Origin: a virus | Strand: one strand, 5' to 3' | Length of the DNA: 63,415 nucleotides | IMG/VR virus record: IMGVR_UViG_3300025085_000016 | Location: 1-63,415 of that record | Shown here: in pieces, positions 1 through 63,415 of the stretch | Layout: each line of letters begins with the position of its first letter | Numbering within the stretch: the stretch's first letter is position 1 | Position numbers and translations under genes: made by a program | The notes under the pieces: generated by a model | Databases searched by the model: none | Seen by the model: only the letters and a program-made list of their open reading frames with translations | What the model was told of the DNA's origin: nothing

Positions 1-193
1 CAATCAGGCCGACCATCTGAATTGCACTGACGACCGCCGTAAGGACAAGAGGAAGTAGGGAAACGCTTTCAAAGCCTTCGGTTTCCTCTCTGAAGAACCA
101 TGAGAATACGCCCAGCGACCAGCACTTATATGCCAGAAAGAGACAAAAGCACCCCACCAAGAATTGCCATGTGCGATTTTCTTTAAGAGACAT
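1..193 (-). CDS. Holin-like small membrane protein, N-terminal part
   Basis: The start codon is at 193 (MSLKENRTWQF) and the frame runs off the left edge without a stop. It encodes two hydrophobic stretches separated by a short charged segment (REETEGFE). The protein is the same as the 128-residue product of 58931-59317, and is identical to it over the last part of the visible frame. If the genome is circular, this gene simply continues at 59124. The two membrane segments and its place after the head genes and beside a peptidase suggest a role in the membrane at lysis, but no family is recognised. Confidence 0.8.
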   Translation of the reverse strand, partial: MSLKENRTWQFLVGCFCLFLAYKCWSLGVFSWFFREETEGFESVSLLPLVLTAVVSAIQMVGLI

Positions 194-497
194 AACCCGG
201 CTCTCCTTTTGATGCTGTCCGTGAGATGGTATCCACTGCAAACAACTCGTCGTTTAGCCACTTGTCGATAAGCCGTTCGATGAACTTCATGGCTATGGCG
301 AGAAGCAAGCTTCCTAGAATCGAGTTGAATCTTCCTGACTCAATAAGCCGCGATCTTGTCTCCCCAATCGCAATCCTTCTTATTTCTGGTTTACTGAGAA
401 CAGGATTCAAAAACCTCTTTACAGTTCCTAGGTAGGCAAGACGAGTCTCTGCCCGAACAACCCCCATCTGCTCTTTGCTCATTAGGTATCTGTTCAT
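183..497 (-). CDS. Conserved hypothetical protein, 104 aa
   Basis: The protein starts MNRYLMSKEQMG and has a positively charged N-terminal half. A hydrophobic helix (ILGSLLLAIAMKFI, around residues 62-75) follows, then a short polar tail. One membrane segment is likely. It overlaps the start of the downstream holin-like gene by 11 bases, so the two are probably translated together. A close homologue lies at 59307-59621. I do not recognise the family. Position between the portal block and the lysis/membrane genes suggests a virion or lysis accessory role, which is inference. Confidence 0.8.
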   Translation of the reverse strand: MNRYLMSKEQMGVVRAETRLAYLGTVKRFLNPVLSKPEIRRIAIGETRSRLIESGRFNSILGSLLLAIAMKFIERLIDKWLNDELFAVDTISRTASKGEPGYVS

Positions 498-538
498 CCC
501 TGATCTCCTTGCCGCTAAACTAGCAACCTCTTTTTACG

Positions 539-787
539 TCACGACCTTGCTCGCTTCCCTGCCTTCTTCGCTGCCGGTGTGTTGGAAACGAACTGCTTTC
601 CCTTCTTTGAGGCTTTCTTCTTCTTGGCGTTTGTTGCTCGCTTCTCTGCTGGGCTTAAAGACTTCCAAGCCTTGTCAGGAAGGTATCGGACTGTGCCTCC
701 CTTCCTTTGGGCTTTCTTCCCGTCACTTGTCCTCCACTTCTCGGAGGTCCACTTCTCTAGGCTTCTCTGTGATTCGAGCTTTGCCAT
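539..787 (-). CDS. Small basic protein, 82 aa
   Basis: This is a lysine- and arginine-rich protein with the pattern LEKWTSEKWRTSDGKKA, then YLPDKAWKSLSPAEKRATN and GKQFVSNTP. That pattern recurs in small basic proteins of many environmental phages. Its start overlaps the stop of the gene at 787-1017 (TGATG), so the two are translationally coupled. A nearly identical copy is at 59663-59911. It could be a packaged DNA-binding protein, because it sits in the head gene block and is strongly basic. Its function is not established. Confidence 0.85.
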   Translation of the reverse strand: MAKLESQRSLEKWTSEKWRTSDGKKAQRKGGTVRYLPDKAWKSLSPAEKRATNAKKKKASKKGKQFVSNTPAAKKAGKRARS

Positions 788-1017
788 CAGTCCATGTATC
801 CTCCGCCCGCTTTCTTGTATGCAAGCGCGAGCATCTGTGCTTTCCTAGCTGACCACTGACCGGGCTTTCCGCCCTTGCCACCGGACTTGATCTTGTTAAA
901 CATCCTTTTTCTCATGCCGGGCTTTGTGTAGTTCCCGGCCTCGTTGACTTTAGACTCTGACTTTCCACCGGACGGTTTTGCTTTTCGCTTGTACGCACCT
1001 TTGTCTCCGCTTGGCAT
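787..1017 (-). CDS. Small basic protein, DUF5872-like, 76 aa
   Basis: The start at 1017 (MPSGDKGAYKRK) aligns with 60141 in the second copy, which supports it over upstream codons. The core contains NYTKPGMRKR, GGKGGKPGQWSARKAQ and AYKKAGGGY. I associate this arrangement with the DUF5872 type of small basic protein found in marine phages and large viruses. It is coupled by TGATG to the next basic gene. A packaged or nucleoid-associated role is plausible but unproven. Confidence 0.8.
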   Translation of the reverse strand: MPSGDKGAYKRKAKPSGGKSESKVNEAGNYTKPGMRKRMFNKIKSGGKGGKPGQWSARKAQMLALAYKKAGGGYMD

Positions 1018-1018
1018 A

Positions 1019-1573
1019 TCAGTCCTTTTTTCTTGCTCCGTGCTTGTCAACGAGCTTTCCTCTTAGCTCTCTTCTTGCATTATCGCTTTTCTTACAGGAT
1101 TCGTCTAACTTACGATCTCTGCCTCTGGCTTGACCCTCAAGCCGATCAACTATGTCTTTCGCTAGACGAGGCTTCTTCTTAGGACCGCCATACGCCTTGA
1201 CCTTCACCATCCCGTCAATGTCCATGCCCTTTTCTATGGCTGAGTTCTTGACATCGTTCGTGCTTGACACCCACGCTGCTGGATCGTTGTACTTACCAAG
1301 CTGACCGTTGTAGCTCTTTCCGTGTGTGTTGATCCCGGCTCTCTTAGCTATTCTGACAATGTCGTCCAACTGATCGTCGTTGAGAGCTTTCATTCGCTCG
1401 TTTTCTCTTTTGTTGAACTTACTGTCTGTATTCCACACCCCCGGAGGACGCATCGCCGCAAGCATTGCTGCCATATTTGGAGACTGACCATCTGCTACGA
1501 GCGTGTCGTAGATGTGTCGCACCCCAAGGGAGTCCATGTCCGACTCAATACTCGCTACTCGATCTTGGCTCAT
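1019..1573 (-). CDS. Hypothetical head-region protein, 184 aa
   Basis: This is a soluble, highly charged protein. Its N-terminal part includes the segment QSPNMAAMLAAMRPPGVW, and its C-terminal third is basic with many lysines and arginines (for example DNARRELRGKLVDKHGARK). It overlaps the portal gene by 4 bases and is the next gene downstream. A homologue of the same length is at 60143-60697. The family is not recognised. Conservation beside the portal in both strains suggests a virion or head-completion role. Confidence 0.8.
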   Translation of the reverse strand: MSQDRVASIESDMDSLGVRHIYDTLVADGQSPNMAAMLAAMRPPGVWNTDSKFNKRENERMKALNDDQLDDIVRIAKRAGINTHGKSYNGQLGKYNDPAAWVSSTNDVKNSAIEKGMDIDGMVKVKAYGGPKKKPRLAKDIVDRLEGQARGRDRKLDESCKKSDNARRELRGKLVDKHGARKKD

Positions 1574-3609
1574 TCTGATTGATCCTGTTGTTGAGTTTCA
1601 GCAGGCTGTGGTGGTGCATTCATCTGCACAAGCATCTGCTGTTCTGCATCTCCAAGCAGGAATTGTCCAACTTCCATATCCATTGCTCGCCCAAGAGCTT
1701 GCATATATGCGTTGTAAGGACGAGTTACACCGCTCATCATTGCCTGCTGGATCACGGGCAAAATGTACTGCCCGATGTCCGTTAGCTGCGCGATCTGAGA
1801 GTCCTTGTTCGGCTTTCGAGCAGTTCCAGCTTCTACCCTATACCGGAAGTCTCTGGTGATTCTGCTCACCTCGTCGGTAAGTATTTGCTGCTGAAACACC
1901 ATTGCAGCAGTCTGACCGACAATCGGAACGAGGTCTTCAAACTCGGAGACAAACCGCATTGCTTGAATCTCTCTAGTTGCCGAGAGAGAAAGCCAGTCCT
2001 CTACGCGAGATGCCATATCGTCTGGCCGAATGTTTATGTTCTGCTGACGATACTGAGCTTCTGCTGCCGAACGCATCTGCCTACTAGACTGCCCGTACAT
2101 CAATTCCGTAAGACCTAACCTCTTATCAATCTGCTCGTTCACCTGTGCAACCATATTCCAAATATCTATGGAAAAGTTAGGTGCTTGCATGAAGCTAATA
2201 GAGTCTGACAACTTTGTGCCGCTGATCCTTTCCAGATCAATCACTGAGAACGGACCCGAACCACTTGTCAACTGAGAGCGAATGTTTTCGCCAGCTTCCT
2301 TCATCACGCCAACATATATTTTGCTGCCCGCTGCAACCTTGTCAGCTATAAAGCTCATGCACCAGTTCACAAACTTCAGCTCGCCTATACATGGCTTGAC
2401 CATGCTGATCGGCCAAATCTCACCCGGCTTGTTGTAGAAGCTGAGCCTACATATAGGCCAGCCGCCATCTGCCATGTAGTCGTCCCAGTAAGGTGCTTCC
2501 CAAGAAGTCTTATCCAGAATCAGGTCCATGTCCCCTGACTGCAAAACATCTGGTGCTAAGTTCAGTGGGTACGGACACTGCTCGCAGATCGCCATGTAAA
2601 CAAAGTCACCGAGAGCATCTAGCCCTTTTACGGACTTGTCTTTCTCGCCTATCTTGAGATTCTGCCCTGCCCCTGACTTGCTATACACTTCGTAGTATTC
2701 AACGAGATCGTGAGTGACCCCTGCGTATGTTCCGTCTCCATTCTTCTTTCTTCCCTTGGCTCCCGTGACTGAAGACATTCTGGCGTACTTGCCCTTCAGT
2801 GAACCCTTTGGCAAGCCAAACTTCTCTTCTACCTGATGTGCAGGCTCACACGAACGAAGTGCGATCCAAGTGCAATCCTTCCAATACTTGGCATCGGGAT
2901 CTACTAACAAGTCTTTGTTGGACCTGTACCTGCTCCTTGCCATTTTGGGACCACCCCCCGGTGGCTGCTCTACCTTGACTTCAAGAAGACCCAGTCCCGT
3001 GATGATCGCCTCTGTTATTGCAAGACGAGCTTCGTCTTGCTTCGATCCTTCCTGCTGAATGTAATTACTTATCGACTCAAGGATGTGAGCATGGTCGCGG
3101 TCAACAACAGAAGCTTTCTCGTCTGCATCAACGACCTGCTGATACTGCTGATACAACGATTGCACTGACTGAATAACAAACGGGTCAGTCACAACCCCCT
3201 GCTGCACAGCATCAGCCATATTCAATAGCTGAGCAGCCTGCGGGTTTCCAGCGTAGAAAGTCTCGATACTGACTTCAGGATTTGATCTAGGGCTTACTGC
3301 AATCACAGGGTTCTGGTGATATAGGACTGGCCCGAACATACTCACAGCCTCAAACAGTCTGTTCACAGACATCTCAAACTGAGGCATCTGTACGTCAGCA
3401 GCCAAGAATCCGTCATGAGAGCCAGACTTCTTCTTCATCTGACTCCACATATGATTGACAGGACCATCAAAGAAAGTCATTGCCTCATCAGCGAAGACAT
3501 CAAACTTCTTCTTGCGGTCCTCTCTCGCAGCTTTGAATACCCGCTTCCACCTATCCACAATAGGCGCAAGTGGGTACTTCTGGCTTCCTGTTGGCTGATA
3601 TTCGTCCAT
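1570..3609 (-). CDS. Portal protein, 679 aa
   Basis: The portal is the dodecameric ring at the capsid vertex through which DNA is packaged and ejected. Length (679 residues), position two genes downstream of the large terminase, and sequence features such as NRLFEAVSMFGPVLYHQNP and a glutamine-rich C-terminal tail fit the large portal family of tailed phages with P22- or T7-like heads. The homologue at 60694-62739 is collinear with mostly conservative changes, so the whole length is under selection. Stop and start overlap with the next gene indicates one transcript. The portal call is by family resemblance and synteny. Confidence 0.85.
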   Translation of the reverse strand: MDEYQPTGSQKYPLAPIVDRWKRVFKAAREDRKKKFDVFADEAMTFFDGPVNHMWSQMKKKSGSHDGFLAADVQMPQFEMSVNRLFEAVSMFGPVLYHQNPVIAVSPRSNPEVSIETFYAGNPQAAQLLNMADAVQQGVVTDPFVIQSVQSLYQQYQQVVDADEKASVVDRDHAHILESISNYIQQEGSKQDEARLAITEAIITGLGLLEVKVEQPPGGGPKMARSRYRSNKDLLVDPDAKYWKDCTWIALRSCEPAHQVEEKFGLPKGSLKGKYARMSSVTGAKGRKKNGDGTYAGVTHDLVEYYEVYSKSGAGQNLKIGEKDKSVKGLDALGDFVYMAICEQCPYPLNLAPDVLQSGDMDLILDKTSWEAPYWDDYMADGGWPICRLSFYNKPGEIWPISMVKPCIGELKFVNWCMSFIADKVAAGSKIYVGVMKEAGENIRSQLTSGSGPFSVIDLERISGTKLSDSISFMQAPNFSIDIWNMVAQVNEQIDKRLGLTELMYGQSSRQMRSAAEAQYRQQNINIRPDDMASRVEDWLSLSATREIQAMRFVSEFEDLVPIVGQTAAMVFQQQILTDEVSRITRDFRYRVEAGTARKPNKDSQIAQLTDIGQYILPVIQQAMMSGVTRPYNAYMQALGRAMDMEVGQFLLGDAEQQMLVQMNAPPQPAETQQQDQSE

Positions 3610-3611
3610 GA

Positions 3612-3998
3612 TTAACCCTCAAGCTGATTGATTCGTTCTTCAAGCTCTCTTAGCTTTTGCTGCACACGGTCGTCTGCAAACTCCCAGATGCCGCCAATCT
3701 CATCTAGTATCTCTGCGCCTGCCTTGATTCTCGGATCATCGCGATGGATGCAATCTCCGTAGGCGTTGTTCATGTAGACACAGTCAATGCTCTTCTCGCC
3801 AGCGGACACAACAAACGCAACGCCTGCGTTCCTTGCTGACACGGTCCCTCTCGGGTAGATCACAACGCACTCGCCACGGTCTGGCTGTGGCATTGACCAT
3901 TCCTTGGGAGGCTCTGGGCTTGGCACAATGTCAACTTGAGTTGACACTGGTTCTACTGGCTTCGGTGCGGGCTTTCGTCGTGCTGCTTTTTTAGCCAT
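3612..3998 (-). CDS. Hypothetical protein between terminase and portal, 128 aa
   Basis: The start at 3998 (MAKKAARRK) has AAGGA seven bases upstream. A basic, proline-rich N-terminal tail (residues 1-35) leads to a compact domain beginning EWSMP, with two cysteines and a histidine (GDCIHRDDPR). The end is a short coiled coil (LRELEERINQLEG). The tail contains STQVD, encoded by one copy of the dispersed palindrome (3929-3946). The second-strain allele (62748-63149) has a different palindrome, encoding VPAVL, in the same linker. The gene sits between TerL and portal and is probably structural. No family is assigned. Confidence 0.8.
   Translation of the reverse strand: MAKKAARRKPAPKPVEPVSTQVDIVPSPEPPKEWSMPQPDRGECVVIYPRGTVSARNAGVAFVVSAGEKSIDCVYMNNAYGDCIHRDDPRIKAGAEILDEIGGIWEFADDRVQQKLRELEERINQLEG
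3929..3946. repeat. Dispersed palindrome type 1, copy 1 (in coding linker)
   Basis: The plus strand reads TGTCAACTTGAGTTGACA: 8-base arms around a central TG. It lies in frame in the gene at 3612-3998 and encodes STQVD on the minus strand. Identical 18-mers are at 14519, 22449 and 34599. Confidence 0.95.
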
Positions 3999-5736
3999 CG
4001 TATGTTCCTTGAGGTCCGAGAATAATTGTGCTGGTAATACCAAACGGATTCTTGGCCTCTTGCCTGTCTTTCATTCGCTTCTTAAATGCCCGCACTCGCC
4101 TCTGTCCTGCGGTCAAAGCCTTTCTCTTTCCTTTCGGTCTGATGTAAGGCTCGCTTATGTCATTTACATAGGTTGCTAAATACTCAAGGCACTCGATTGC
4201 GTGGGTGTTAGTTCGCCTGTTGCCAGTGTCTGTCACGACCCCATTGGCTTTCTTCTTTCGGAACCTTCGCATTTCGCGATCTAAGTTTGGACATGCGTTA
4301 AAGTCTACTAATATCTGTGGCTTTCCCGCGCCTGTAACTGCCAACATTCCTCTGGTGATTTCTTCTCGGTAGGCGATGACAGAGCAGCCGGGCGTGAATC
4401 TGTTTTTTGTTTCTATACACTGAACATCAAGTGCCTTCATCTCCCGCTCGTATGCTTCGCGAGGAGATATGCCTGTGTCCATAGAGGTCAGGTTTCCACC
4501 GTGAGAGTCAATCAAGAATGTTTGGAACCATGTTCCCGCAGTCGAATCATGCAGAGCTTTTGCAATCATCCTTGCCGTACACTGCCTGAGATATATCTCT
4601 CCGAAAACCAAGTGCCAAGTTCCACTTGGTGGCGTAGCAATCAAGATTCCTGCTGCGGTATCGTGTCCGGGGTCAACCGATAGACGCCTACACCAGTTAA
4701 TAGGAACCTTCCTATTCTTTAGGAACTCGTTGGCTTCAGGAATCTGCTCGCTATATCTATCCACATCATGAAGCGATCTGTTCCACATTGGGTACATCAA
4801 GACGCTGTCCGTTATCAGCTCACCCAAAGCCCTCTTGCGGTAGACATCGTCCCCCATGCTCTTCCAGCCAGCGACTGCTGCTTTCTTAGCCTCTGCCGGA
4901 AGGTAAGGGTTCGCCTCCATTGAGATCCGATACACGATGGTCGTTGGCTTTGGACCGCCTCTAGTGAACTCGTCGGCCTGTGTATCCGCTCTCTCAGCAA
5001 GTCTGGCGATTGCATCGTTGTCATCGTGCGGAAGAGCAGACCATATCAATCGACCGCTCCTGTCAATGAGACGACCGGCTGCTTCTTCGTAGTGCCTCGG
5101 ATCGAGAATATCTTCATCAATGTGCAGTAGGTCGCAACTGTAGCCTTGGTCTGGCTTAGAGCGTGAACTAAAAGCTTTGATTTCCCATCCTGTTTTCAGG
5201 AACACATTGCTGAATACGTTCTTGCCCCTGTCCTTCCATACGATCTTTTCAATCATTCTTGGAGGAATCAAAGGAGGTGCTGGCTTAGCCTCCTTCTTTC
5301 TAGCAACATCTTGTGGAACCCAAGGACGGTAGACCCTCCACAAGTCCGTCTCTTTGTCACGGATAATCTTGAATGCGCCTGCTTTGAACAAGTACGGATA
5401 CACTACCCCCCCAAGATGTGATTCTTTGTACCCGATGATTGCTAATACACCGTCTCTCTTTGGGTACTTGTCGTAAGGGTCTTTACCTAAGACAGCTCTT
5501 GCGTCCTCAACGAAAGCAGCCAGTGACTTGCCGCCTCTGTTTCCGCCCTGCAACATGCACTCCGGTGCATCACACCGATGGAACTCGTCTTGCGTTGGCT
5601 GAGGGATGTATAGATTTAGAGCTTCGATTCTCCTCTTGGCGATCTCGCCAGCGACACGAAACGCTTTCTTTTTTGCGAAGCTGCTGTGTCCAATGTCCTT
5701 GAGAGCATCTGCTGGCATTCCGGGCGAGTCAGTCAT
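3991..5736 (-). CDS. terL: Terminase large subunit, 581 aa
   Basis: This is the packaging motor ATPase and headful or site-specific nuclease. Walker A is GGNRGGKS (residues 64-71 from the start at 5736). A Walker B-like LLHIDEDI follows, and the nuclease domain shows SVDPGHD and FLIDSHGG acidic motifs. Length is normal for TerL. The start overlaps the end of the upstream TerS-like gene, and the stop overlaps the start of the next gene. The C-terminal end has a basic tail (RRVRAFKKRMKDRQ). A diverged second copy, C-terminal part only, is at the right edge (63142-63415). Confidence 0.93.
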   Translation of the reverse strand: MTDSPGMPADALKDIGHSSFAKKKAFRVAGEIAKRRIEALNLYIPQPTQDEFHRCDAPECMLQGGNRGGKSLAAFVEDARAVLGKDPYDKYPKRDGVLAIIGYKESHLGGVVYPYLFKAGAFKIIRDKETDLWRVYRPWVPQDVARKKEAKPAPPLIPPRMIEKIVWKDRGKNVFSNVFLKTGWEIKAFSSRSKPDQGYSCDLLHIDEDILDPRHYEEAAGRLIDRSGRLIWSALPHDDNDAIARLAERADTQADEFTRGGPKPTTIVYRISMEANPYLPAEAKKAAVAGWKSMGDDVYRKRALGELITDSVLMYPMWNRSLHDVDRYSEQIPEANEFLKNRKVPINWCRRLSVDPGHDTAAGILIATPPSGTWHLVFGEIYLRQCTARMIAKALHDSTAGTWFQTFLIDSHGGNLTSMDTGISPREAYEREMKALDVQCIETKNRFTPGCSVIAYREEITRGMLAVTGAGKPQILVDFNACPNLDREMRRFRKKKANGVVTDTGNRRTNTHAIECLEYLATYVNDISEPYIRPKGKRKALTAGQRRVRAFKKRMKDRQEAKNPFGITSTIILGPQGTYDG

Positions 5737-6334
5737 CTTTGACCTCCACAGCATCAGCGTCTATCACATCGCCATCAAGAGTTGGTATGGCTGTAGGCGG
5801 CAGCTCATTTCCTTTCTGATACTCAACCAAATGCTGACGCATCACTTGGAGCAAGTCTCGCTCCTCCATCATGTCTAGCTGCCTCTCAGCCAAGCCAAGC
5901 TTTGTCACCTTACCCGCAAGCTGCATCATCATGTCGTGAATCTTCACACGCTTTTGACTGCCCGGATCACAAGCCAAGTATGTTGCAAACAAATGCTTCG
6001 CCCACCCATTGACTCCACCGAACGGTTTCATCATCGCCTCAAAGACCTCGTTGATGTGCGGGTCGAAGCTCCCCCCCGACGATAAGCCACCCAGTGTCTC
6101 TAGCCCCTCTTCTTCAATCTGGCGTAGCTTTGCATCTAAACGGTCTTGTTTCTTTTGCTCGTTTATCTTGGACCTGCAATCCTTGCAAGTATCTCGCCTC
6201 CCACCTTCTTTTGTTTCATCTCTATGAAAGCTTTCAAGATCCTTTCGTATGCCACATGACGTACAGTATTTATGCTGAGGGTTGCTCACCACAGCTTCGA
6301 TAGGATCTTGTTCTGTGCTTTCTGACGTATCCAT
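5729..6334 (-). CDS. Putative small terminase-like protein with zinc ribbon, 201 aa
   Basis: The start at 6334 (MDTSESTEQ) is chosen because the upstream part of the frame lies in the terminator. Residues about 24-52 form a zinc-binding module with two CxxC pairs (CTSC and CKDC) separated by a basic stretch. A charged helix follows, then a domain with NGWAKHLFATYL and KVTKLGLAERQLDMMEERD. The start of TerL lies inside its 3' end. Adjacency to TerL and the helical DNA-binding character suggest the DNA-recognition subunit of the terminase. The zinc module is unusual for TerS, so this remains an inference. Confidence 0.6.
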   Translation of the reverse strand: MDTSESTEQDPIEAVVSNPQHKYCTSCGIRKDLESFHRDETKEGGRRDTCKDCRSKINEQKKQDRLDAKLRQIEEEGLETLGGLSSGGSFDPHINEVFEAMMKPFGGVNGWAKHLFATYLACDPGSQKRVKIHDMMMQLAGKVTKLGLAERQLDMMEERDLLQVMRQHLVEYQKGNELPPTAIPTLDGDVIDADAVEVKDD

Positions 6335-6344
6335 GTTGCCCCAT

Positions 6345-6382
6345 AAAAAAAGCGGACGAACCATTGTGGCGGCTCGTCCGCT
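6345..6382 (-). terminator. Rho-independent terminator between decoration and terminase genes
   Basis: On the minus strand a 9-bp stem (AGCGGACGA with TCGTCCGCT, 14-base loop) is followed by seven U residues. It lies between the capsid decoration gene and the TerS-like gene. It should therefore reduce readthrough from the abundantly needed capsid genes into the packaging genes. Confidence 0.9.
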
Positions 6383-6409
6383 GATAACTCATTTGCTACG
6401 AGCTTTGAA

Positions 6410-6973
6410 CTAGACCCATTCAGGGTTAAGTTCAACCTCTACCAAGGCATCGTTGGTTGAGTCTGCTTTTACAACAGTACCCAAGACGAGTCCGTGATCG
6501 CTACCAAGAGCAGCCTCTGCCAGTCGGCCTGAAGCTCCTGCTTTAATAACATCGCCAGCAGCCAAGTCCTCAGCACTAGCAGGTTGCTTAGCCTTGCTTG
6601 GGCCTCGGACGATGGCATAAAACAGGTCGTTTGCAGCAACTGTTGATGCACCCAGTGCTGGGTCAACAACTAAGCAGCAGCGGTCGCCTGCTGAAGACTT
6701 AGCGTCTGCGGTTCCAAGACCGGCGTGTCCTGCGTCAATGTCAACGAGGATGATCTCACCAGCAGCAAGAGTGCCACCAGTTTTGTTACGCAAGATGCGA
6801 GCTGTTACTCGACGACCAACAACTCGTCCGCTCATGCCTGCTGCTGTTGCAACATCTGCCGACACGGGGAACGTGTACTCACGCCCATCCAACGAAGTGT
6901 TGATGTCAACTGAATCATCGTTTTGGCCTCGGATGGTATCACCCAAGCCAAAGTCTGCTACTGAATCTAGCAT
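6410..6973 (-). CDS. Putative capsid decoration or head protein, 187 aa
   Basis: This is a small protein rich in beta-strand-forming, glycine, alanine and valine residues (ILRNKTGGTLAAGEIILVD, AAGDVIKAGASGRLAEAA). It lies directly downstream of the major capsid gene. The repeated A-G-D-V/I turns are typical of head decoration or head-fibre proteins encoded next to the capsid gene. It ends just before a strong terminator, so it forms a scaffold-capsid-decoration unit with the two upstream genes. Assignment is by position and composition. Confidence 0.65.
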   Translation of the reverse strand: MLDSVADFGLGDTIRGQNDDSVDINTSLDGREYTFPVSADVATAAGMSGRVVGRRVTARILRNKTGGTLAAGEIILVDIDAGHAGLGTADAKSSAGDRCCLVVDPALGASTVAANDLFYAIVRGPSKAKQPASAEDLAAGDVIKAGASGRLAEAALGSDHGLVLGTVVKADSTNDALVEVELNPEWV

Positions 6974-7005
6974 TGTGTTAAGTCCTTTTTACAGGGGTGA
7001 TAAAA

Positions 7006-8151
7006 TTAGATTTCGCTATTTGGTTTCCAAACGACGAAGTTACGAGGCGACTTGTACTTGATGTTACTCAAGGTACTTACGACAGCATTCATACTCTGGG
7101 TATTGATGTCGTACTGAGGTCCACCTTCATCCTCGAACAGTCCGCCGGAAGTAAGTCCCATCAGCTCCATGCAAGCAAGGTTAATACCGAATGCGTAGCC
7201 AACCGGAACTGCGTTCTCGAAACCGAGTTCGATGCCATCGAAACGGAAGACGTTACGAAAGCCAAGTGAGATTAACGAGTCTGGTGCGTTCTTCACTTCG
7301 ATAGTCTGGCGACCATCGTTATGATCCTTGAGATCAATGAAGAGGTTGCGATCCATAAACACGTTCGTAATCTGACCGTCGATGGTGCTGTTACGCTGGG
7401 CATGAGTAATGCCGTAACGCAATGCTTTCTCAAGCTGCGCTCCACCAGTACCAGCAAACGAGCTGCTGTCACGCTGGACCACCAATGGCGACCAGAAATC
7501 GTACTGAGCATCTTGGGTCGCTTCAGGCCAAGGTGCGCTACTGTCCTGAGAACCACCGTAGGTTCCAAGTACGCACGACAAGTTACCATAGCTCCCCGAA
7601 GGAGCAGCGGCTTTGTCAGCAGCGTTCTTTGAACGTGCGCCTGATCCATCAATGTTGAGGGTCTGGCCGTTGGTTCGTGACAAGGTCTTGAAGCCGTGCC
7701 AGAAACGCTCGTTCTCAGGATCTTCTCCGTCGATATAGAACTGAGGAGCAAGCTCCTGCAAGAGAGACTCTTTCAGTCGCTCTGCAAAACCATCAAGAAC
7801 CTTGATGATCGCTGACTCACCTTTATTCTTTTCCATCTCGCGGCGCTTGATACTATCCGTAACTTCGTATCCGCGATAGTCTAGGCTGGCAGTCTTGAAC
7901 AGGTTGGTAGGTGTAAAGTTCCTGCTGTTCTCGCCTGTTGCTCCAACTGCCTTGTGGTTCTTGTAGCGAACCGGCCATTGGATGCCTTCACCGCCATGAC
8001 CAGTAGAGATTCGGCCTGCCGACTCTAGCAATGCCATGATCTGGAAGTTCTTCTTTGCCGTATCTTCTACTTCTCGTAAGAGCTTTGGCATCGTGGTATG
8101 CAAGGAACGCGCCCAAGCAAACCGATCAAAATTCTGGAATCCACTGGGCAT
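7006..8151 (-). CDS. Major capsid protein, 381 aa
   Basis: The protein follows a scaffold-like gene. It contains a helical N-terminal arm (residues 1-45), a loop rich in basic residues (YEVTDSIKRREMEKNKGE), a long central domain and a C-terminal region with NAVVSTLSNIKYKSPRNFVVW. This arrangement resembles the non-cleaved HK97-fold capsid proteins found in large environmental phage families, where an aromatic- and lysine-rich end is common. Size and synteny (scaffold, capsid, decoration, terminase, portal) make this the best major capsid candidate in the genome. Confidence 0.85.
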   Translation of the reverse strand: MPSGFQNFDRFAWARSLHTTMPKLLREVEDTAKKNFQIMALLESAGRISTGHGGEGIQWPVRYKNHKAVGATGENSRNFTPTNLFKTASLDYRGYEVTDSIKRREMEKNKGESAIIKVLDGFAERLKESLLQELAPQFYIDGEDPENERFWHGFKTLSRTNGQTLNIDGSGARSKNAADKAAAPSGSYGNLSCVLGTYGGSQDSSAPWPEATQDAQYDFWSPLVVQRDSSSFAGTGGAQLEKALRYGITHAQRNSTIDGQITNVFMDRNLFIDLKDHNDGRQTIEVKNAPDSLISLGFRNVFRFDGIELGFENAVPVGYAFGINLACMELMGLTSGGLFEDEGGPQYDINTQSMNAVVSTLSNIKYKSPRNFVVWKPNSEI

Positions 8152-8191
8152 GATAGCCTCCTTGCGAATGTGGAACTACTAAAAACTGTGG

Positions 8192-9283
8192 CTACTCTGT
8201 GCCGCTCATCATGGCGGCAAGGGTTTCCTCACCGAACGACATCTGTTGACGACCTGTGGGATCGCCACCGCTCTCTGCTGTCACACCATTAAAGGAGGAC
8301 TGCCGAGTTCGACTTGTATTGGTTCTTCCACGCATTGCAGAGCGTTGCTGCTGCGCCGTTGACTGTGCTTGTTGTGACTGCTGAACTGGAGCCGCTGCTT
8401 GTGCAGTTGCGCCGCCCATTGCCATCTGTGCGTACTGGATCTGCTTTGTCACAGACGAAACACCGTCTTGTGCAAAAGAATCCATGTGCTGAAGGAATTG
8501 GTGTCCGCTGTCGCTGTAGATGTAATCTCCCGACATTGGATCTTTCAGAAACTGCCCTGTAGCTGGATCTTGTTGGTATAGCCAACTTGCGTTCTGATTG
8601 ATAAACGAATCAACCTGAGCGTTCTCTTGAGCCTGTGTTTGCTTCTGCTCGTAGGAACTCTCAAACCTCTCCTGAATCATTTGCTCCACACGCTGGTCTA
8701 CAGCGGCGGCGAACTGCCGAGGATCTTGAAGCACCTCTTGCCACTGACGAAGCTTGCGATCAATCCCCAGAATCTTGTCTCTGGTGTCATCATCGACATG
8801 CTCAGCAATCGTCCTGTTGCCCTCCTCATCAACTTCGATGTATTGATTTGCCCATGCAGGGTCTTGCCAACCATCAACCAATTCGCTCAGCGGATCTTTC
8901 TTCTGAGGCTCTTGTGTAACTGGCTCTGGAGCAGTTGTGTTGTGGCTCTGAAGTTGCTGTTGATAGAATTTTAGCTGGTCAGCATATGTGTTTATCTGCT
9001 GATCTCGCTGCCGGTTGGATTCAATCAACGCCCTTACAGCATTGTCAGCATCTTCAAATGATTGCAGTCCAGCCTTCTGAAGTTCAGTTTGCCAAGCTGG
9101 TTCGGCTTCAGCGGCTTCCGTGCCGCTGTCGCCTTCCTCCTGAAGAGCTAACGGGGAATGCTCTTCTGGGAGTTGTGTTTCTTGATCTTGCGCAGGCTGA
9201 TCCTGAGCTTCCAGCTCTTGCTCGGCTGCATCGAGTGCTTCCTGCTCTGTATCGTTTAGTTCAACAGAGTCGTCAGATGGCAT
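8192..9283 (-). CDS. Capsid scaffolding protein, 363 aa
   Basis: The protein is very acidic at the N-terminus (residues 1-70, rich in E, D and Q). The middle is glutamine-rich and predicted helical, and the C-terminus is basic and Q/S/R-rich (RSAMRGRTNTSRTRQSS). This is the usual build of an internal scaffold that nucleates procapsid assembly and leaves before packaging. It is immediately upstream of the capsid gene and is the first gene of the leftward late block. The upstream 133 bases are the divergent promoter region. Confidence 0.8.
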   Translation of the reverse strand: MPSDDSVELNDTEQEALDAAEQELEAQDQPAQDQETQLPEEHSPLALQEEGDSGTEAAEAEPAWQTELQKAGLQSFEDADNAVRALIESNRQRDQQINTYADQLKFYQQQLQSHNTTAPEPVTQEPQKKDPLSELVDGWQDPAWANQYIEVDEEGNRTIAEHVDDDTRDKILGIDRKLRQWQEVLQDPRQFAAAVDQRVEQMIQERFESSYEQKQTQAQENAQVDSFINQNASWLYQQDPATGQFLKDPMSGDYIYSDSGHQFLQHMDSFAQDGVSSVTKQIQYAQMAMGGATAQAAAPVQQSQQAQSTAQQQRSAMRGRTNTSRTRQSSFNGVTAESGGDPTGRQQMSFGEETLAAMMSGTE

Positions 9284-9299
9284 TTGTCTTTTCCATTTG

Positions 9300-9335
9300 C
9301 TGCGGTTTCAAAACAACATCACCGCAGTTTGAAAC
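9300..9335. promoter_or_regulatory. Interlocked inverted repeats in divergent promoter region
   Basis: Two overlapping inverted repeats lie between the leftward scaffold gene and the rightward HTH gene. CTGCGGT (9300-9306) pairs with ACCGCAG (9321-9327). GTTTCAAA (9305-9312) pairs with TTTGAAAC (9328-9335). The arms cannot both pair at once. The site is a candidate operator for control of the late operon, with the small HTH protein at 9417 as a natural candidate binder (inference). Confidence 0.5.
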
Positions 9336-9416
9336 ACATCTGAAGCACAGCAAGCTTAAACAGGGGGTGTCGGCCAGCTTTGTACTGGAATACACAAAAA
9401 CGGGAAAAGAAATTTG

Positions 9417-9653
9417 ATGGTGAAAGATACGCAAGACGAGACAAAGGCGTTGATGCCTCTGACTGATCTAAGGGCGGCACTCAAGAAGAAAGGTATTATT
9501 GACGTACCAAGGTCTACTGTTCGCAACTGGTACTTGTTTGGAGTTTCTACTCCTAGCGGTAGAATCAAACTGAAGACTCGAAAGGTGGGGAGCAGGCGAA
9601 TGTCGTCTGTGAAATGGACTCTTGACTTCTTGGACGAACAAGACTCCACCTAA
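9417..9653 (+). CDS. Small HTH/excisionase-type DNA-binding protein, 78 aa
   Basis: The protein contains LTDLRAALKKKGI, followed by VPRSTVRNWYLFGV and a basic stretch (KLKTRKVGSRRMSS). This is the look of a small winged-helix or MerR/excisionase-like DNA-binding domain, in which STVRNW would be the recognition helix. ATG at 9417 is preferred over the TTG one codon upstream. It is the first gene of a short rightward operon facing away from the late operon. It may control the divergent promoter region between them. Confidence 0.7.
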   Translation: MVKDTQDETKALMPLTDLRAALKKKGIIDVPRSTVRNWYLFGVSTPSGRIKLKTRKVGSRRMSSVKWTLDFLDEQDST

Positions 9654-9673
9654 CACAAGCCACGGAGGTTGAT

Positions 9674-10363
9674 GTGAGAGTTCTAATTATCGGAGATACC
9701 CACTGCCCAGCTATGCACCCTCGCTACCCAGAGTGGTTAGCGGAAATTCACAGCCAGTGGCAATGCGAGCGAGTCGTTCACATCGGGGATCTAGTTGACA
9801 ACTTGGCACTCAACTTTCACAAGAAGAACCCCAAGCTAAAGAACCCTGTCCGAGAGAAAGAGAAAGCACAGGAACAGGTTGCTAAGCTGACTGGCTTCTT
9901 TCCAAAAGCTGACTGGCTACTGGGAAACCATGACATCCTGCCTTGGAGATGGGCGGACGAAGTTGGACTTCCCCATGACTACCTGAGAAAGCCGGGGCAT
10001 ATCTGGAGTGTGAAATGGAAAGCACACCCTCGCTACACTGACCTAAAGATCGACGGAGTCCTGTACCGTCACGGAGACAAAGGAAAGGGCGGTCGCATGG
10101 CTGCACTCAGCAATGCTGCCTGCGAACATGTATCTCTAGTTCAGGGACACCTTCATCAGCAAGGCGGCGTTGAGTACATGGCAAACAGCAAGCATCGCAT
10201 ATTTGGATGCCAGACTGGATGTGGGGTTGACGACAAAAGCCTCCATTTCGAGTACGGAAGAAAGTACAACCAAAAAAGCATATTGGGATGCTCAGTGGTA
10301 GTGGACGGACACACTGCATACTTTGAACCAATGCCCGATAAACTTGCAAAGGATTTGAAATGA
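9674..10363 (+). CDS. Calcineurin-like metallophosphoesterase, 229 aa
   Basis: The start is GTG at 9674 with GGAGG five bases upstream. All metal-binding motifs of the family are present in order: GDTH (residues 7-10), GDLVD, GNHD, a later RHGD and GHLH. The enzyme should hydrolyse phosphomonoesters or phosphodiesters with a two-metal centre. Phage members act on nucleotides, DNA ends or RNA, and the substrate here cannot be told from sequence. It overlaps the next small gene by 4 bases (ATGA). Confidence 0.9.
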   Translation: MRVLIIGDTHCPAMHPRYPEWLAEIHSQWQCERVVHIGDLVDNLALNFHKKNPKLKNPVREKEKAQEQVAKLTGFFPKADWLLGNHDILPWRWADEVGLPHDYLRKPGHIWSVKWKAHPRYTDLKIDGVLYRHGDKGKGGRMAALSNAACEHVSLVQGHLHQQGGVEYMANSKHRIFGCQTGCGVDDKSLHFEYGRKYNQKSILGCSVVVDGHTAYFEPMPDKLAKDLK

Positions 10364-10599
10364 AAACGAACGACATCGTTGCGGTGACATTCTTAGATCA
10401 TGTTGAGTCACCAAAGGTTTCCAAAGCTGAGAAATTCACAGTATTCGGTAGGGTGATTCAAGTGACATCACGATCTATCATCGTCGGAGCTTGGTGCTAC
10501 GCAAACAAACGTAGGAAGTGCGATCACAATACGAACACATACACAATCCTAAGATCGTGTATCGAGAATGTTGACATCTTAGTTCCGAAAGAAGACTAG
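10360..10599 (+). CDS. Hypothetical protein, 79 aa
   Basis: The start overlaps the stop of the phosphoesterase gene (ATGA), indicating translational coupling. The protein looks like a small beta-barrel (VAVTFLDHVES, FTVFGRVIQVTSRSIIVGAW) and has two cysteines near the basic segment ANKRRKCDH. It ends at the convergent junction with the leftward DNA-processing operon and overlaps the end of that operon's last gene by 4 bases. Family and function are not recognised. Confidence 0.75.
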   Translation: MKTNDIVAVTFLDHVESPKVSKAEKFTVFGRVIQVTSRSIIVGAWCYANKRRKCDHNTNTYTILRSCIENVDILVPKED

Positions 10600-10883
10600 C
10601 GTGGCCTTTTTCTTCTGAGCCTAGCCCCATGCTTTCGTGCGTCTAGGTATCTTGCGAGCCTACGCTGGCGATACGTCTTGGGGTACAGGTTGATGTCACT
10701 TGCTCTCTTTTTGCTCGGCCTGTGGTCGCTCACTCTGATCTTTAGCGACCTCTTGTCCTTCTTCGCGTAGACGTATCTGCTCAGGCTCTTGTTGCTCCTG
10801 CCTTGGGAAACAGACCATCCCCGTCTCTTGAAAGTATCCACAACCGACCGTACAACTCTTGCAATCGACTGAGCGTCTGTCAT
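10596..10883 (-). CDS. Small basic phage protein, 95 aa
   Basis: The start at 10883 (MTDAQSIARVV) is preferred over an upstream codon. The protein is basic throughout and contains SLSRYVYAKKDKRSLKIRVSDH, a pattern that recurs in small phage proteins of unknown role. The remainder is arginine-rich (TYRQRRLARYLDARKHGARL). Its first 188 bases overlap, in another frame, the 3' part of the gene at 10696-10959. It is the last gene of the leftward DNA-processing operon. Confidence 0.7.
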   Translation of the reverse strand: MTDAQSIARVVRSVVDTFKRRGWSVSQGRSNKSLSRYVYAKKDKRSLKIRVSDHRPSKKRASDINLYPKTYRQRRLARYLDARKHGARLRRKRPR

Positions 10884-10959
10884 TCCATCTGATCTCGTCG
10901 TAGTTAGAATCAAACTTGTTTTTATCTACTGGTCGTGGCGCATCGCCTTTGCCGTTCAC
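10696..10959 (-). CDS. Small phage protein with GDAPRPVDKNKFDSNYDEI motif, 87 aa
   Basis: GTG at 10959 is chosen because it overlaps the stop of the 26-aa gene (GTGA) and has GGAGG at normal spacing; ATG at 10962 is the alternative. The first 26 residues match a short phage protein usually only 30-50 residues long. Here the frame continues for about 60 more residues over the start of the gene at 10596-10883 in a different frame. The extension is rich in glutamine, glutamate and lysine and may be a read-on tail, so the true C-terminus is uncertain. Confidence 0.6.
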   Translation of the reverse strand: MNGKGDAPRPVDKNKFDSNYDEIRWNDRRSVDCKSCTVGCGYFQETGMVCFPRQEQQEPEQIRLREEGQEVAKDQSERPQAEQKESK

Positions 10960-12338: not shown

Positions 12339-12342
12339 ACAC

Positions 12343-14966: not shown

Positions 14967-14976
14967 CTTTAGATCC

Positions 14977-17156: not shown

Positions 17157-17159
17157 CTC

Positions 17160-54020: not shown

Positions 54021-54021
54021 A

Positions 54022-58485: not shown

Positions 58486-58934
58486 AGTCTGCTCCTTATC
58501 TCTGAGATCGCATCGTCGATACTGCCCGGCATCGGGATGCAATCGAGCCGAGCAGACTTAGAACGGAACACCACTGATGGTGCTTGCCCGTATCCGATCT
58601 CTGCCATCTCCTGAAGCCACTTCTCTGCGCCGGATGTATCTTGCCCGACTTCGAGTCGCCGCTTCTCGATTCCGTTCTCGTCGCAGAAATCATCCACCTT
58701 CATGCTGACACTCGCCTGACCCTGACCCGGTGTCATGCTCTCGTCCGTCACAAACAACACCTGCGCAGACTTCTCTGAAGGGACAACAACCGAAGGAACA
58801 AACTTTCTCCAGTAGCTGCTGTCGTAAACAACCCACGCAAGCGCAAGAGCAAGCAGCAAGTTCACACTTACTTTCTTGGTTGGCTTCTGCTTTTCTTGGG
58901 CAGGCGCAGGGATGTCTTTGAGGATGTCGATCAC
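58482..58934 (-). CDS. Membrane-anchored thioredoxin-like protein, 150 aa
   Basis: One membrane span (VSVNLLLALALAWVVYDSSY) is followed by a domain that resembles thioredoxins (VLFVTDES, then RLEVGQDTSGAEKWLQEMAE and the cis-proline strand APSVVFRSKS). It lacks the CxxC pair. The soluble part probably faces the periplasm. It may bind a partner peptide rather than catalyse redox. It is coupled to the peptidase gene (GTGA). Confidence 0.65.
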   Translation of the reverse strand: MIDILKDIPAPAQEKQKPTKKVSVNLLLALALAWVVYDSSYWRKFVPSVVVPSEKSAQVLFVTDESMTPGQGQASVSMKVDDFCDENGIEKRRLEVGQDTSGAEKWLQEMAEIGYGQAPSVVFRSKSARLDCIPMPGSIDDAISEIRSRL

Positions 58935-59317
58935 TTGTCCCCCCCCACCTTGATTTCAATGGAGGCGATTCGTTCATCCAAGCTGTTAAGTGCTTCAACA
59001 AGTTTTTCAGCATCTATCTTTCCCTCTATGGTCTTCGCTGCGCGGTCAAGCCTCGGCATCCTTGCGCGAAGATAGTCCACAGCCTTTTCCGCGAGAGGCT
59101 GCAACCCGCTGCACAGCATGATCGCAATCAGGCCGACCATCTGAATTGCACTGACGACCGCCGTAAGGACAAGAGGAAGTAGGGAAACGCTTTCAAAGCC
59201 TTCGGTTTCCTCTCTGAAGAACCATGAGAATACGCCCAGCGACCAGCACTTGTAGACTAGAAAGATCACGAAGCACCCGACTAGGAATTGCCACGTTTTG
59301 TTTTCTTTAAGAGACAT
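58931..59317 (-). CDS. Holin-like two-span membrane protein, 128 aa
   Basis: The start at 59317 (MSLKENKTWQ) matches the start at 193 of the left copy. Two hydrophobic segments (WQFLVGCFVIFLVYKCWSLG and LLPLVLTAVVSAIQMVGLI) are followed by a charged helical tail (IDAEKLVEALNSLDERIASI). The 127-base identity with the left edge of the contig falls in its middle. It is probably the holin or a partner in the lysis cassette. Confidence 0.75.
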   Translation of the reverse strand: MSLKENKTWQFLVGCFVIFLVYKCWSLGVFSWFFREETEGFESVSLLPLVLTAVVSAIQMVGLIAIMLCSGLQPLAEKAVDYLRARMPRLDRAAKTIEGKIDAEKLVEALNSLDERIASIEIKVGGDK

Positions 59318-59621
59318 AACCCGGCTCTCCTTTTGATGCTGTCCGTGAGATGGTGTCCACTGCAAACAGCTCATCGTTGAGCCACTTGTCGATCAGACGT
59401 TCGATGAACTTCATAGCTATGGCGAGAAGCAGGCTTCCCAAAATCGAGTTGAACCTTCCTGACTCAATAAGCCTCGATCTTGTCTCCCCGATCGCCATCC
59501 TTCTGATTTCTGGTTTGCTGAGAACAGGACTCAAAAACCTCTTTGCAGTTCCTAGGTAGGCAAGACGAGCCTCTGCCCGGACGGCCTCCATCTGCTCTTT
59601 ACTCATTAGGTATCTGTTCAT
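59307..59621 (-). CDS. Conserved hypothetical protein, 104 aa (second-strain allele)
   Basis: This is the allele of the gene at 183-497, with the same length and only a few substitutions (for example QMEAVRAEARLAY against QMGVVRAETRLAY). One membrane segment is conserved (ILGSLLLAIAMKFI). See the left copy for structure. Strong conservation of the C-terminal part suggests functional constraint. Confidence 0.8.
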   Translation of the reverse strand: MNRYLMSKEQMEAVRAEARLAYLGTAKRFLSPVLSKPEIRRMAIGETRSRLIESGRFNSILGSLLLAIAMKFIERLIDKWLNDELFAVDTISRTASKGEPGYVS

Positions 59622-59662
59622 CCCTGATCTCCTTGCCGCTAAACTAGCAACCGCTTTTTACG

Positions 59663-59911
59663 TCACGACCTTGCTCGCTTCCCTGCTTTCTTCGCTGCTG
59701 GGGTGTTGGAAACGAACTGCTTTCCCTTCTTTGAGCCTTTCTTTTTCTTGGCGTTTGTCGCTCGCTTTTCTGCTGGGCTTAAAGACTTCCAAGCTTTGTC
59801 AGGAAGGTATCGAACCGTGCCTCCCTTTCTCTGGGCTTTCTTGCCATCACTTGTTCTCCACTTCTCGGAGGTCCATTTCTCTAGGCTTCTTTGTGATTCG
59901 AGCTTTGCCAT
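59663..59911 (-). CDS. Small basic protein, 82 aa (second-strain allele)
   Basis: This is the allele of the gene at 539-787, differing at a single residue (KKGSKKGK instead of KKASKKGK) in spite of many silent changes in the DNA. Strong purifying selection on such a basic protein supports a conserved role in the virion or DNA packaging. Confidence 0.85.
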   Translation of the reverse strand: MAKLESQRSLEKWTSEKWRTSDGKKAQRKGGTVRYLPDKAWKSLSPAEKRATNAKKKKGSKKGKQFVSNTPAAKKAGKRARS

Positions 59912-60141
59912 CAGTCCATGTATCCTCCGCCCGCTTTCTTGTATGCAAGCGCGAGCATCTGTGCTTTCCTAGCTGACCACTGACCGGGCTTTCCGCCCTT
60001 GCCGCCGGACTTGATCTTATTGAACAGCCGCTTCCTCATTCCGGGCTTTGTGTAATTCCCAGCCTCGTTGACTTTAGACTTTGACTTTCCGCCGGACGGT
60101 TTTGCTTTCCTCTTGTACGCACCCTTGTCTCCGCTTGGCAT
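59911..60141 (-). CDS. Small basic protein, DUF5872-like (second-strain allele)
   Basis: This is the allele of 787-1017 with very few residue changes (SKSK for SESK, RLFN for RMFN). GQWSARKAQMLALAYKKAGG is unchanged. The start at 60141 is homologous to 1017. It is coupled by TGATG to the following gene. Confidence 0.8.
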   Translation of the reverse strand: MPSGDKGAYKRKAKPSGGKSKSKVNEAGNYTKPGMRKRLFNKIKSGGKGGKPGQWSARKAQMLALAYKKAGGGYMD

Positions 60142-60142
60142 A

Positions 60143-60697
60143 TCAGTCCTTTTTTCTTGCTCCATGCTTATCAACGAGCTTCCCCCTAAGCTCCTTTCTT
60201 GCATTATCGCTTTTCTTGCAGGATTCGTCTAACTTACGATTTTTCTTTCTCGCGTCACCTTCCAGCCTGTCGATAATATCTTCGGCCAGGCGAACCTTCT
60301 TCTTTGGCCCCCTGTAGGCGTTGACCTTCACCATTCCGTCAATGTCCATCTCCTTGGCTATGGCCGCCTTTCTCACATCTCCGGTGTCCGAGACCCAAGC
60401 CATTGGATCTTTGTAGCCCCCAAGCTGACCGTTGTATGTCTTTCCATGGGTGTTGATTCCTGCACTCTTTGCAACGCGAACAATGTCCTCCCTTTGGTCG
60501 TCAGCCAGGCATCGCATCCTGTCGTTCTCGCGCTTGCTGAAATCCTTGCCTGTGTTCCATGACCCGGGTGGCTTCATTGAGGCGAGCATTGCGGCCATGT
60601 TTGGGCTTTGCCCGTCCTTGATAAGACAATCATAGATATGCCTTATCCCAGCGCGGTCCATTTCTTCCTCTATACTTGCGATCCTCTGCTCGTTCAT
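60143..60697 (-). CDS. Hypothetical head-region protein, 184 aa (second-strain allele)
   Basis: This is the allele of 1019-1573 with the same length but clearly more divergence in the N-terminal 100 residues than in the basic C-terminus, whose final 25 residues are almost unchanged. The uneven divergence hints that the C-terminal basic region is the constrained functional part. Confidence 0.8.
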   Translation of the reverse strand: MNEQRIASIEEEMDRAGIRHIYDCLIKDGQSPNMAAMLASMKPPGSWNTGKDFSKRENDRMRCLADDQREDIVRVAKSAGINTHGKTYNGQLGGYKDPMAWVSDTGDVRKAAIAKEMDIDGMVKVNAYRGPKKKVRLAEDIIDRLEGDARKKNRKLDESCKKSDNARKELRGKLVDKHGARKKD

Positions 60698-62739
60698 TGC
60701 TGCTCCCCCTCAGGTTGTGGATATGCCTGTGGCGGCGCATTCATTTGCAGAAGCATCTGCTGCTCCGCATCACCAAGCAAGAAATTATCAATGTCAATGT
60801 CCATGGCCCTTCCCAAGGCCTTCATGTATGCGTTGTACGGCCTAGTAACGCCTGACATCATTGCCTGTTGGATTACCGGAAGTATGTACTGACCGACATC
60901 CGTGAGCTGAGCTATCTGCGTGTCCTTGTTTGGCTTTCTCGCTGTGCCGGCCTCTACTCGATAGCGGAAGTCTCGCGTGACTCTCGAAACTTCTCCAGTG
61001 AGGATCTGTTCTTCAAAGACCCTTGCTGCCGTTGACCCTATGACTGAAACAAGGTCTTCGTATTCAGCTATAAACCGCATGGCTTGGATCTCTCGCGTGG
61101 CGGAAAGACTGAGCCAGTCCTCCACTCTGCTTGCCATGTCATCCGGCCTTACGTTAATGCTCTGGTTTCTGTACTGAGCCTCAGCCGCGCTTCGCATCTG
61201 GCGAGAGGACTGGCCGTACATCAGCTCCGTCAGGCCGAGGCGCTTGTCGATCGAAGCGTTCACCTGGGCGACCATGTTCCAGATGTCCATGCTAAAGTCA
61301 GGCGCACGCAGGAAGCTAATCATGTCATTGATGTTCCTGCCGCTTATCCTTTCAAGCTCGATAACTGAAAACGGACCCTTTCCGCTCGTTAGCTGAGCGC
61401 GGATATTTTCCCCGGCTTCTTTCAGCATTCCGACATATATCTTTGAGCCTGAAGCAACCTTGTCGGCAATGAAACTCATGCACCAGTTGACGAATTTAAG
61501 CTCGCCTATACACGGCTTGACCATCGAGATCGGGTAGACCTCTCCCGGCTTCTGGTAAAAGCTAAGCCTACAAATCGGCCAGCCACCGTCTGACATATGG
61601 TCATCCCAGAACGGGACCTCCCAAGAGGCTTGCTCAAGGATCAGATCCATGTCTTGTGTTTCCAGCACTCCCGGTGCAAGGTTCAAAGGGTATGGACACT
61701 GCTCGCAGATGGCTAGGTAAACAAAGTCACCAAGGGCGTCGAGTCCTTTTACTCGCTTGTCCTTTTCTGCCATCTTGAGGTTCTGGCCTGCACCGTTCTT
61801 ACTGTAGACCTCCCAGTATTCCACAAGGTCGTGAGTTAGCCCTGCATAACTTCCGTCGCCATTCCTCTTTCGGCCTCGCGCATCATTTGATGCTGTCATC
61901 CGTGCATACTTCCCCTTTAGGCTTCCCTTTGGCAGACCAAACTTCTCTTCGACTTTATTGGCAGGCTCGCAGCTCCTTAGAGCTATCCAAGTCACATCTC
62001 TCCAATACTTGGCATCAGGGTCAACGAGAAGGTCTTTGTTGCTTCGGAACCTACTTCGAGCAAGTTTTGGCCCGCCAGCAGGGGGCTGCTCAACCTTGAC
62101 TTCAAGAAGGCCCATGCCTGTAATGATTGCCTCAGTGATTGCGAGTCTTGCCTCGTCCTGTTTGCTTCCCTCTTGCTGAATGTAGTTGCTGACAGCCTCA
62201 AGTATCCGGGCGTGATCTGAGTCAATGACAGAGGCTTTCTTCTCTGTGTCTACAGATTGCTGGTATTGCTGAATCAGATTTTGGTACATCTGAACGATCT
62301 GCGGATCTTGAGCTATACCCTGCTCTATCGCCGGACCCATGTTGAGGATTTGAAGCGCCTGAATATTCCCTGCGTAGAACGTCTCAATCGAGATGTCCGG
62401 GTTCGATCTAGGCGTGACCGCGATGATTGGGTTTTGGTGATATAGCACTGGCCCAAAGATGGCGACCGCTTCAAACAGCCTGTTTACAGACATCTCAAAC
62501 TGAGGCATCTGTACGTCTTTGGCTAAGAATCCATCATGTCCTCCGCCTTTCTGGGATGACCTTAACGACGACCACATGTGATTCAGTGGCCCATCGAAGA
62601 AGGCCATAGCTTCATCAGCGTACTGGTCAAACTTCTTTTTTCTGTCTTTTCTTGCGGCATCGAAGCACTTCTTCCAGCGATCTACGATTGGCTGCAAGGG
62701 GTAGCTTCTAGGCTTTGTCTGCTTCTCGTACTCGTCCAT
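60694..62739 (-). CDS. Portal protein, 681 aa (second-strain allele)
   Basis: This is the allele of the portal at 1570-3609, two residues longer because of small indels near the N-terminus and at the C-terminal tail. The core is highly conserved. The segment before the stretch of VEQPP and the region around the QQ-rich loop vary most, as expected for surface loops. Confidence 0.85.
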   Translation of the reverse strand: MDEYEKQTKPRSYPLQPIVDRWKKCFDAARKDRKKKFDQYADEAMAFFDGPLNHMWSSLRSSQKGGGHDGFLAKDVQMPQFEMSVNRLFEAVAIFGPVLYHQNPIIAVTPRSNPDISIETFYAGNIQALQILNMGPAIEQGIAQDPQIVQMYQNLIQQYQQSVDTEKKASVIDSDHARILEAVSNYIQQEGSKQDEARLAITEAIITGMGLLEVKVEQPPAGGPKLARSRFRSNKDLLVDPDAKYWRDVTWIALRSCEPANKVEEKFGLPKGSLKGKYARMTASNDARGRKRNGDGSYAGLTHDLVEYWEVYSKNGAGQNLKMAEKDKRVKGLDALGDFVYLAICEQCPYPLNLAPGVLETQDMDLILEQASWEVPFWDDHMSDGGWPICRLSFYQKPGEVYPISMVKPCIGELKFVNWCMSFIADKVASGSKIYVGMLKEAGENIRAQLTSGKGPFSVIELERISGRNINDMISFLRAPDFSMDIWNMVAQVNASIDKRLGLTELMYGQSSRQMRSAAEAQYRNQSINVRPDDMASRVEDWLSLSATREIQAMRFIAEYEDLVSVIGSTAARVFEEQILTGEVSRVTRDFRYRVEAGTARKPNKDTQIAQLTDVGQYILPVIQQAMMSGVTRPYNAYMKALGRAMDIDIDNFLLGDAEQQMLLQMNAPPQAYPQPEGEQQ

Positions 62740-62747
62740 TGTGCTTC

Positions 62748-63149
62748 CTAGCCTTCGAGGTTATCGAGTCTATTTTCAATCGCCGAAAGACGCGCATCAT
62801 TTTGTAGCTTTTCTTTCGTAAAGTCCCAAACACCCCCGATGTCATTTTTCAGTTCAGGGTTAGCCGTCAGTCGTGGGTCATCCTTGTGGTAGCACTCGTC
62901 GTACCCTTGATTTCGATACGAGATGCCAATAGATGTCTTCCCCACAGTCGCGACAAACCCAATGTCAGCATTCTTTTCTGACACTGTGCATCTGTAGTAA
63001 AAGACAACTGGCTGCCCACGGCTTGGCATGGGCATAGACCACGCCTCAGGCTCAGTCGCCGGTTCATTCAGTACCGCTGGTACTTCCTTTGCTGGCCCTG
63101 GGGTTACGGGCTTTTGCGTTCTGGTGGAGGCGGTTCTTTTCTTAGCCAT
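62748..63149 (-). CDS. Hypothetical protein between terminase and portal, 133 aa (second-strain allele)
   Basis: This is the allele of 3612-3998. The C-terminal domain from WSMP onward is similar, but the N-terminal linker differs. Where the left copy has VSTQVDI, this copy has EVPAVLNEP, encoded by palindrome type 2 at 63070-63084. The start MAKKRTAST has AAGGAAC upstream. This allele pair is the key evidence that palindromes are exchanged within a linker. Confidence 0.8.
   Translation of the reverse strand: MAKKRTASTRTQKPVTPGPAKEVPAVLNEPATEPEAWSMPMPSRGQPVVFYYRCTVSEKNADIGFVATVGKTSIGISYRNQGYDECYHKDDPRLTANPELKNDIGGVWDFTKEKLQNDARLSAIENRLDNLEG
63070..63084. repeat. Dispersed palindrome type 2, copy 2 (second-strain linker)
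   Basis: AGTACCGCTGGTACT is identical to 45708-45722 and encodes VPAVL in frame on the minus strand. In the left-copy allele the equivalent linker instead holds palindrome type 1 (3929-3946). Confidence 0.93.
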
Positions 63150-63415
63150 TGTACGTTCCTTCTGGTCCTAGAATGATTGTTTGGGAAACCCCAAACGGGT
63201 TCTGGGCCTCTTGCCTTTGTTGCTTTCGTTTATGAAAAGCTCGCACGCGCCTCTGCCCGGCAGTTAGCTTTATTCTCTGGCCTTTCGGCTTGATGTATTT
63301 CTTTGTTGCGTCCTGTAGGTATGCAGCCAGATACTCCAGGCATTCAATGGCATGAGTGTTCGCTCTCCGGTTGCCTGTATCTGTAACCATTCCGTTGGCT
63401 CTCTTCTTGCGGAAC
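63142..63415 (-). CDS. terL: Terminase large subunit, C-terminal part (second-strain allele)
   Basis: The frame is open to the right edge and covers the last 90 or so residues of TerL (FRKKRANG, then TGNRRANTHAIECLEYLA and the basic tail ending in a short glycine- and tyrosine-containing segment). It is homologous to the end of 3991-5736. The 5' part is cut by the contig end. Confidence 0.85.
   Translation of the reverse strand, partial: FRKKRANGMVTDTGNRRANTHAIECLEYLAAYLQDATKKYIKPKGQRIKLTAGQRRVRAFHKRKQQRQEAQNPFGVSQTIILGPEGTYNG

Follow-up and report, generated by a model that had tools for sequence, protein, structure and literature searches.

End repeats of environmental virus contigs pile up at the k-mer lengths used by assemblers, for example 55, 77 and 99, and this has been ascribed to circles that are broken at random with k bases left at both ends (CheckV, PMC8116208). 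In the JGI metagenome workflow, metaSPAdes is run with -k 33,55,77,99,127, so that the largest k is 127 (PMC11256825). The DNA analysed here, referred to as the window, is the whole of virus record IMGVR_UViG_3300025085_000016 (63,415 bases), and it contains an exact repeat of 127 bases of which only one copy lies at a contig end. With a probability of about 0.96, the window is an artefact of assembly in which two real phage strains, termed A and B, have been fused.

The repeat and the joint

Window positions 1-127 recur without a mismatch at 59125-59251, and the two copies first differ at base 128, as the initial annotation had described; an exact repeat of k length with divergence at the very next base is the pattern of de Bruijn circle closure. 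The second copy stops 4,164 bases short of the contig end, and the repeat does not occupy both physical ends as a biological direct terminal repeat would. A run of 127 matching bases is far more than chance would give: its probability at a given place is about 1.4e-5 under the mismatch rate of this region and about 1e-19 under a 29% mismatch rate; the assembler also selects for an exact match, because paths can be joined solely through identical k-mers. The visible repeat equals k whatever the true length of identity, because a path that leaves a fork opens with the last k shared bases, and identity between A and B may extend to the left of 59125. A reading frame across the joint is open both ways, from 59124 to 59125 as the window is written and from 59124 to 1 as in the true genome, where it has 148 codons. 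The coordinates of these and other features are collected in Table 1.

Table 1. Features of the two strain versions, the joint and the packaging genes in the window.
Feature	Position	Strand	Remarks
Fork k-mer, first copy	1..127		Probable start of the assembly path; in the real genome 53974-59124 precedes it
Allele A, true continuation past the joint	128..4264		Holds the portal gene, its neighbours and the terminase 3' end; also in IMGVR_UViG_3300025084_000255
Portal protein gene, allele A (679 aa)	1570..3609	-	Predicted through the profile matches of its B counterpart
Probable terminase large subunit gene (587 aa)	3991..5754	-	Walker A motif and weak Terminase_6N match; allele B keeps just the 3' end
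147-aa gene spanning the joint	58931..59374	-	A chimera as it stands in the window, with a 5' part from strain B
Fork k-mer, second copy	59125..59251		Circle closes and the path switches strain
Allele B	59252..63415		4,164 bases of the second strain; 59896-63415 also in IMGVR_UViG_3300017763_000951
Portal protein gene, allele B (681 aa)	60694..62739	-	Groups with L003, L031 and L033

The annotation had called 127 a common k in de Bruijn assemblers, and it is indeed the highest value in the k series of JGI's metaSPAdes workflow (PMC11256825). As a control, 79 unrelated gokushovirus-like (microvirus) contigs were drawn from the same collection as the window; exact repeats of at least 20 bases were found at the ends of 28, and 127 (n=2) was just one among several recurrent lengths, which included 123 (n=5), 121 (n=3) and 99 (n=3). 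The same shape of overrun into a diverged version was present in two of the 79: L070 (7,113 bp) has 112 exact bases followed by stretches of about 83% and 78% identity, and L087 (5,200 bp) has 103 exact bases within a 624-base stretch of 92% identity, and in each the exact bases lead into a diverged second version of the genome start.

Versions A (1 to about 4264) and B (59125-63415) stay homologous up to the contig end, so the annotated homology of about 4.3 kb stands, with the refinement that the divergence is graded and not uniform. By BLASTN the two are 78% identical over 3.6 kb and then 73.8% identical over the last 280 bases. Identity is about 92% up to about base 1100, with 82 differences in 128-1100, and about 71% beyond it, with about 27-45 differences per 100 bases in the next 600 bases. 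The sharp change near 1100/60220 forms a mosaic boundary within or beside a gene for a 184-aa protein that adjoins the portal gene. Because this boundary is inside the stretch that also occurs in an independent B contig (59896 onward), the change of identity is a trait of strain B and not of the assembly. The simplest reading of the graded divergence would be past homologous recombination between lineages. Recombination and mosaicism of this kind are ordinary in phages, and that of the A and B portal alleles is no exception.

Closure of the strain A map

An exact 60-base match from the repeat retrieved the contig IMGVR_UViG_3300025084_000255 (22,403 bp), in which window 53974-59124 is joined directly to 1-17252, so that the first turn is linked back onto its own beginning. 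Only one of its 22,403 bases mismatches the window (at window 15428), and there are no mismatches in the first 8,491 bases, joint included; the joint is thus flanked by identity over 5 kb leftward and 15 kb rightward. This contig most likely comes from another assembly in which the B branch was not taken, because one assembly would not normally give both contigs over the same 22 kb. Its crossing from 59124 to 1 shows that the map is a closed one of about 59,124 bp, with A, the 5' copy, as the genuine sequel to 59124. The relatives L008, L009, L010, L030, L031, L033 and L034 carry genes to either side of the joint in closed-map order. The initial annotation had proposed a circle of about 59,124 bp, and for the closed map this is upheld by the retrieved contig and by the open frame over the joint; the packaged DNA of strain A may be either circularly permuted or bounded by fixed terminal repeats that were merged by assembly.

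Strain B

Allele B was recovered independently: the contig IMGVR_UViG_3300017763_000951 (9,796 bp) holds window 59896-63415 with two differences in 3,520 bases. Past 63415 the sequence of this contig is homologous to window 4264-10550, 71-80% identical and in normal order, and B therefore normally adjoins the terminase and capsid region of its own strain, not a second copy of A. The overrun thus occurs elsewhere as a separate genome with flanks of its own, which agrees with the annotation that the path ran into a second strain. Two exact patterns retrieved no contig spanning the fork along the B branch, and to the left of 59896 strain B is represented by the window alone. A search for contigs that overlap position 63415 and extend B, aimed at the assembly that the window comes from, turned up just L003.

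All relatives with a contig that spans the portal have a single portal gene, and two copies per genome were found neither in relatives nor in independent assemblies. The portal tree places A with L032 (support 100/99) and B with L003, L031 and L033 (98/97), and the tree of the 184-aa neighbouring protein gives the same partners (98/96 for A, 97/96 for B). Since these supported clades are separate, A and B are allelic forms of a single locus within a natural population and not paralogues. The portal alleles have 79% amino acid identity, with dN of 0.18 and saturated dS, values that point to an old divergence under constraint. The two alleles offer, as the annotation had suggested, a true natural comparison at the portal.

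Gene content of the phage

The portal protein of strain B matches P22_portal PF16510 (5e-07) and phrog_332 (1e-05), and by this profile similarity the portal of the phage is predicted to be P22-type. The putative terminase has a Walker A motif, GGNRGGKS, that is invariant in 10 relatives, and matches to Terminase_6N were weak, being found in 4 of 10 members with a best E of 0.0034. Searches by sequence gave no meaningful match to the putative terminase among solved structures (PDB), and no terminase relatives were confirmed in species genomes. The capsid protein resembles phrog_9953, and the phage also encodes an integrase. None of the portal, terminase and capsid proteins matched any of 50,697 annotated phage records, and as far as the searched collections go the phage group looks uncultivated.

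A complete tRNA-Ser(GGA) at 17160-17252 overlaps the 3' end of the tyrosine integrase gene (17187-18323, minus strand). The same tRNA is present in the relatives G004 and G005, in the latter within a stretch that is homologous to the integrase region. Two contigs stop at this tRNA, 3300025084_000255 at window 17252 and 3300006810_000808 at about 17230. The site may be an attachment site at which free and integrated forms fork in assembly; an exact search of species genomes for a host, with a 36-base piece comprising the 3' part of the tRNA and its flank, gave no match.

A single open reading frame of 3,397 aa (32941-43134, minus strand) takes up about 17% of the genome; it has no match in PHROGs, and its product is possibly an ejected virion protein. 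Within a 561-aa gene (54022-55707), positions 54727-55146 form a direct repeat of about 320 bases at an offset of 99 bases with 86% identity, which also gives multiple matches in L010 and L034 and is perhaps a repeated fibre domain.

Origin of the contig

The most probable course of events is that a short-read de Bruijn assembler with a final k of 127, presumably metaSPAdes, would have begun its path at the fork between A and B, the vertex being window 1-127. The path would then have walked strain A for one full turn of the closed map (1-59124), re-entered the same 127-mer at 59125-59251 and, by a branch choice during path extension, left it on the B side, following B over 4,164 bases to the end of that path. 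A real hybrid of A and B, either a concatemer or a packaged recombinant formed by homologous recombination near the portal region in a co-infected cell, is very unlikely. The strains do have identical stretches of 127 and 112 bases in common, and the mosaic of the alleles near base 1100, seen also in the independent B contig, indicates that such strains recombine. However, an assembler path would by itself give a repeat of exactly k bases and a contig that starts at the fork, so that no hybrid is needed, and a hybrid would have to be abundant to dominate the assembly.

Only a minimal chance is given to a genuine tandem duplication of the portal/terminase region, by which one genome would carry both versions as diverged paralogues. 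The presence of both copies in a single contig, with genes that are open and under purifying constraint, would fit such a duplication, but in a separate genome B is the only copy and has upstream genes of its own, while A closes without B in IMGVR_UViG_3300025084_000255, and these two observations refute it in practice. Moreover, no relative has two portals, A and B lie in different clades alongside other genomes, and the terminase gene of B is truncated where the contig stops. Equally improbable is that the 127 bp are a direct terminal repeat of biological origin, as in T7-like ends, followed by extra sequence. The 127-bp identity itself would agree with it, and circular assemblies are also obtained from phages with fixed terminal repeats (general knowledge; PMC10563150), but the second copy is internal and is followed by diverged homologous genes instead of a terminus, the length is that of the assembler k, and the repeat lies inside the protein gene at the joint; a terminal repeat of this kind was rejected on these grounds. 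Any real terminal repeat must be elsewhere or merged.

Comparison with known assembly artefacts and curation of the record

With the window read as a joining of two strains by the assembler, the record should be cut back to about 59,124 bp and flagged as self-closing, and 59252-63415 should be set aside, the excess being about 4.3 kb. The segment set aside is not part of this virus, and its inclusion makes the genome seem to have two portals. The importance of the case is for curation only and not for biology, the artefact being ordinary though neatly provable.

The repeat is similar to the k-length direct terminal repeats of circular contigs described with CheckV (PMC8116208) in that it equals the assembler k and stems from the closing of a circle, but it differs from them in being internal, the path having run 4,164 bases into another strain. 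Like the concatenated-genome contigs of IMG/VR (CheckV, PMC8116208), the window results from a path that passes its own start; unlike them, its overrun belongs to a different strain that is 71-92% identical. Because that strain is diverged, the mean 20-mer frequency of the window is just 1.009, and it would pass unnoticed through a duplication screen based on k-mer frequency. Overruns of a circle into a diverged strain thus escape both terminal-repeat detection and k-mer frequency screening; a screen for the first or last k bases of a contig recurring internally would catch them. Inter-strain chimeric de Bruijn contigs (PMC11443906; strain branches, PMC10563150) are likewise joined through a perfectly shared stretch, but in the window the switch came after a full turn of the circle and is therefore provable from the contig together with one or two relatives.
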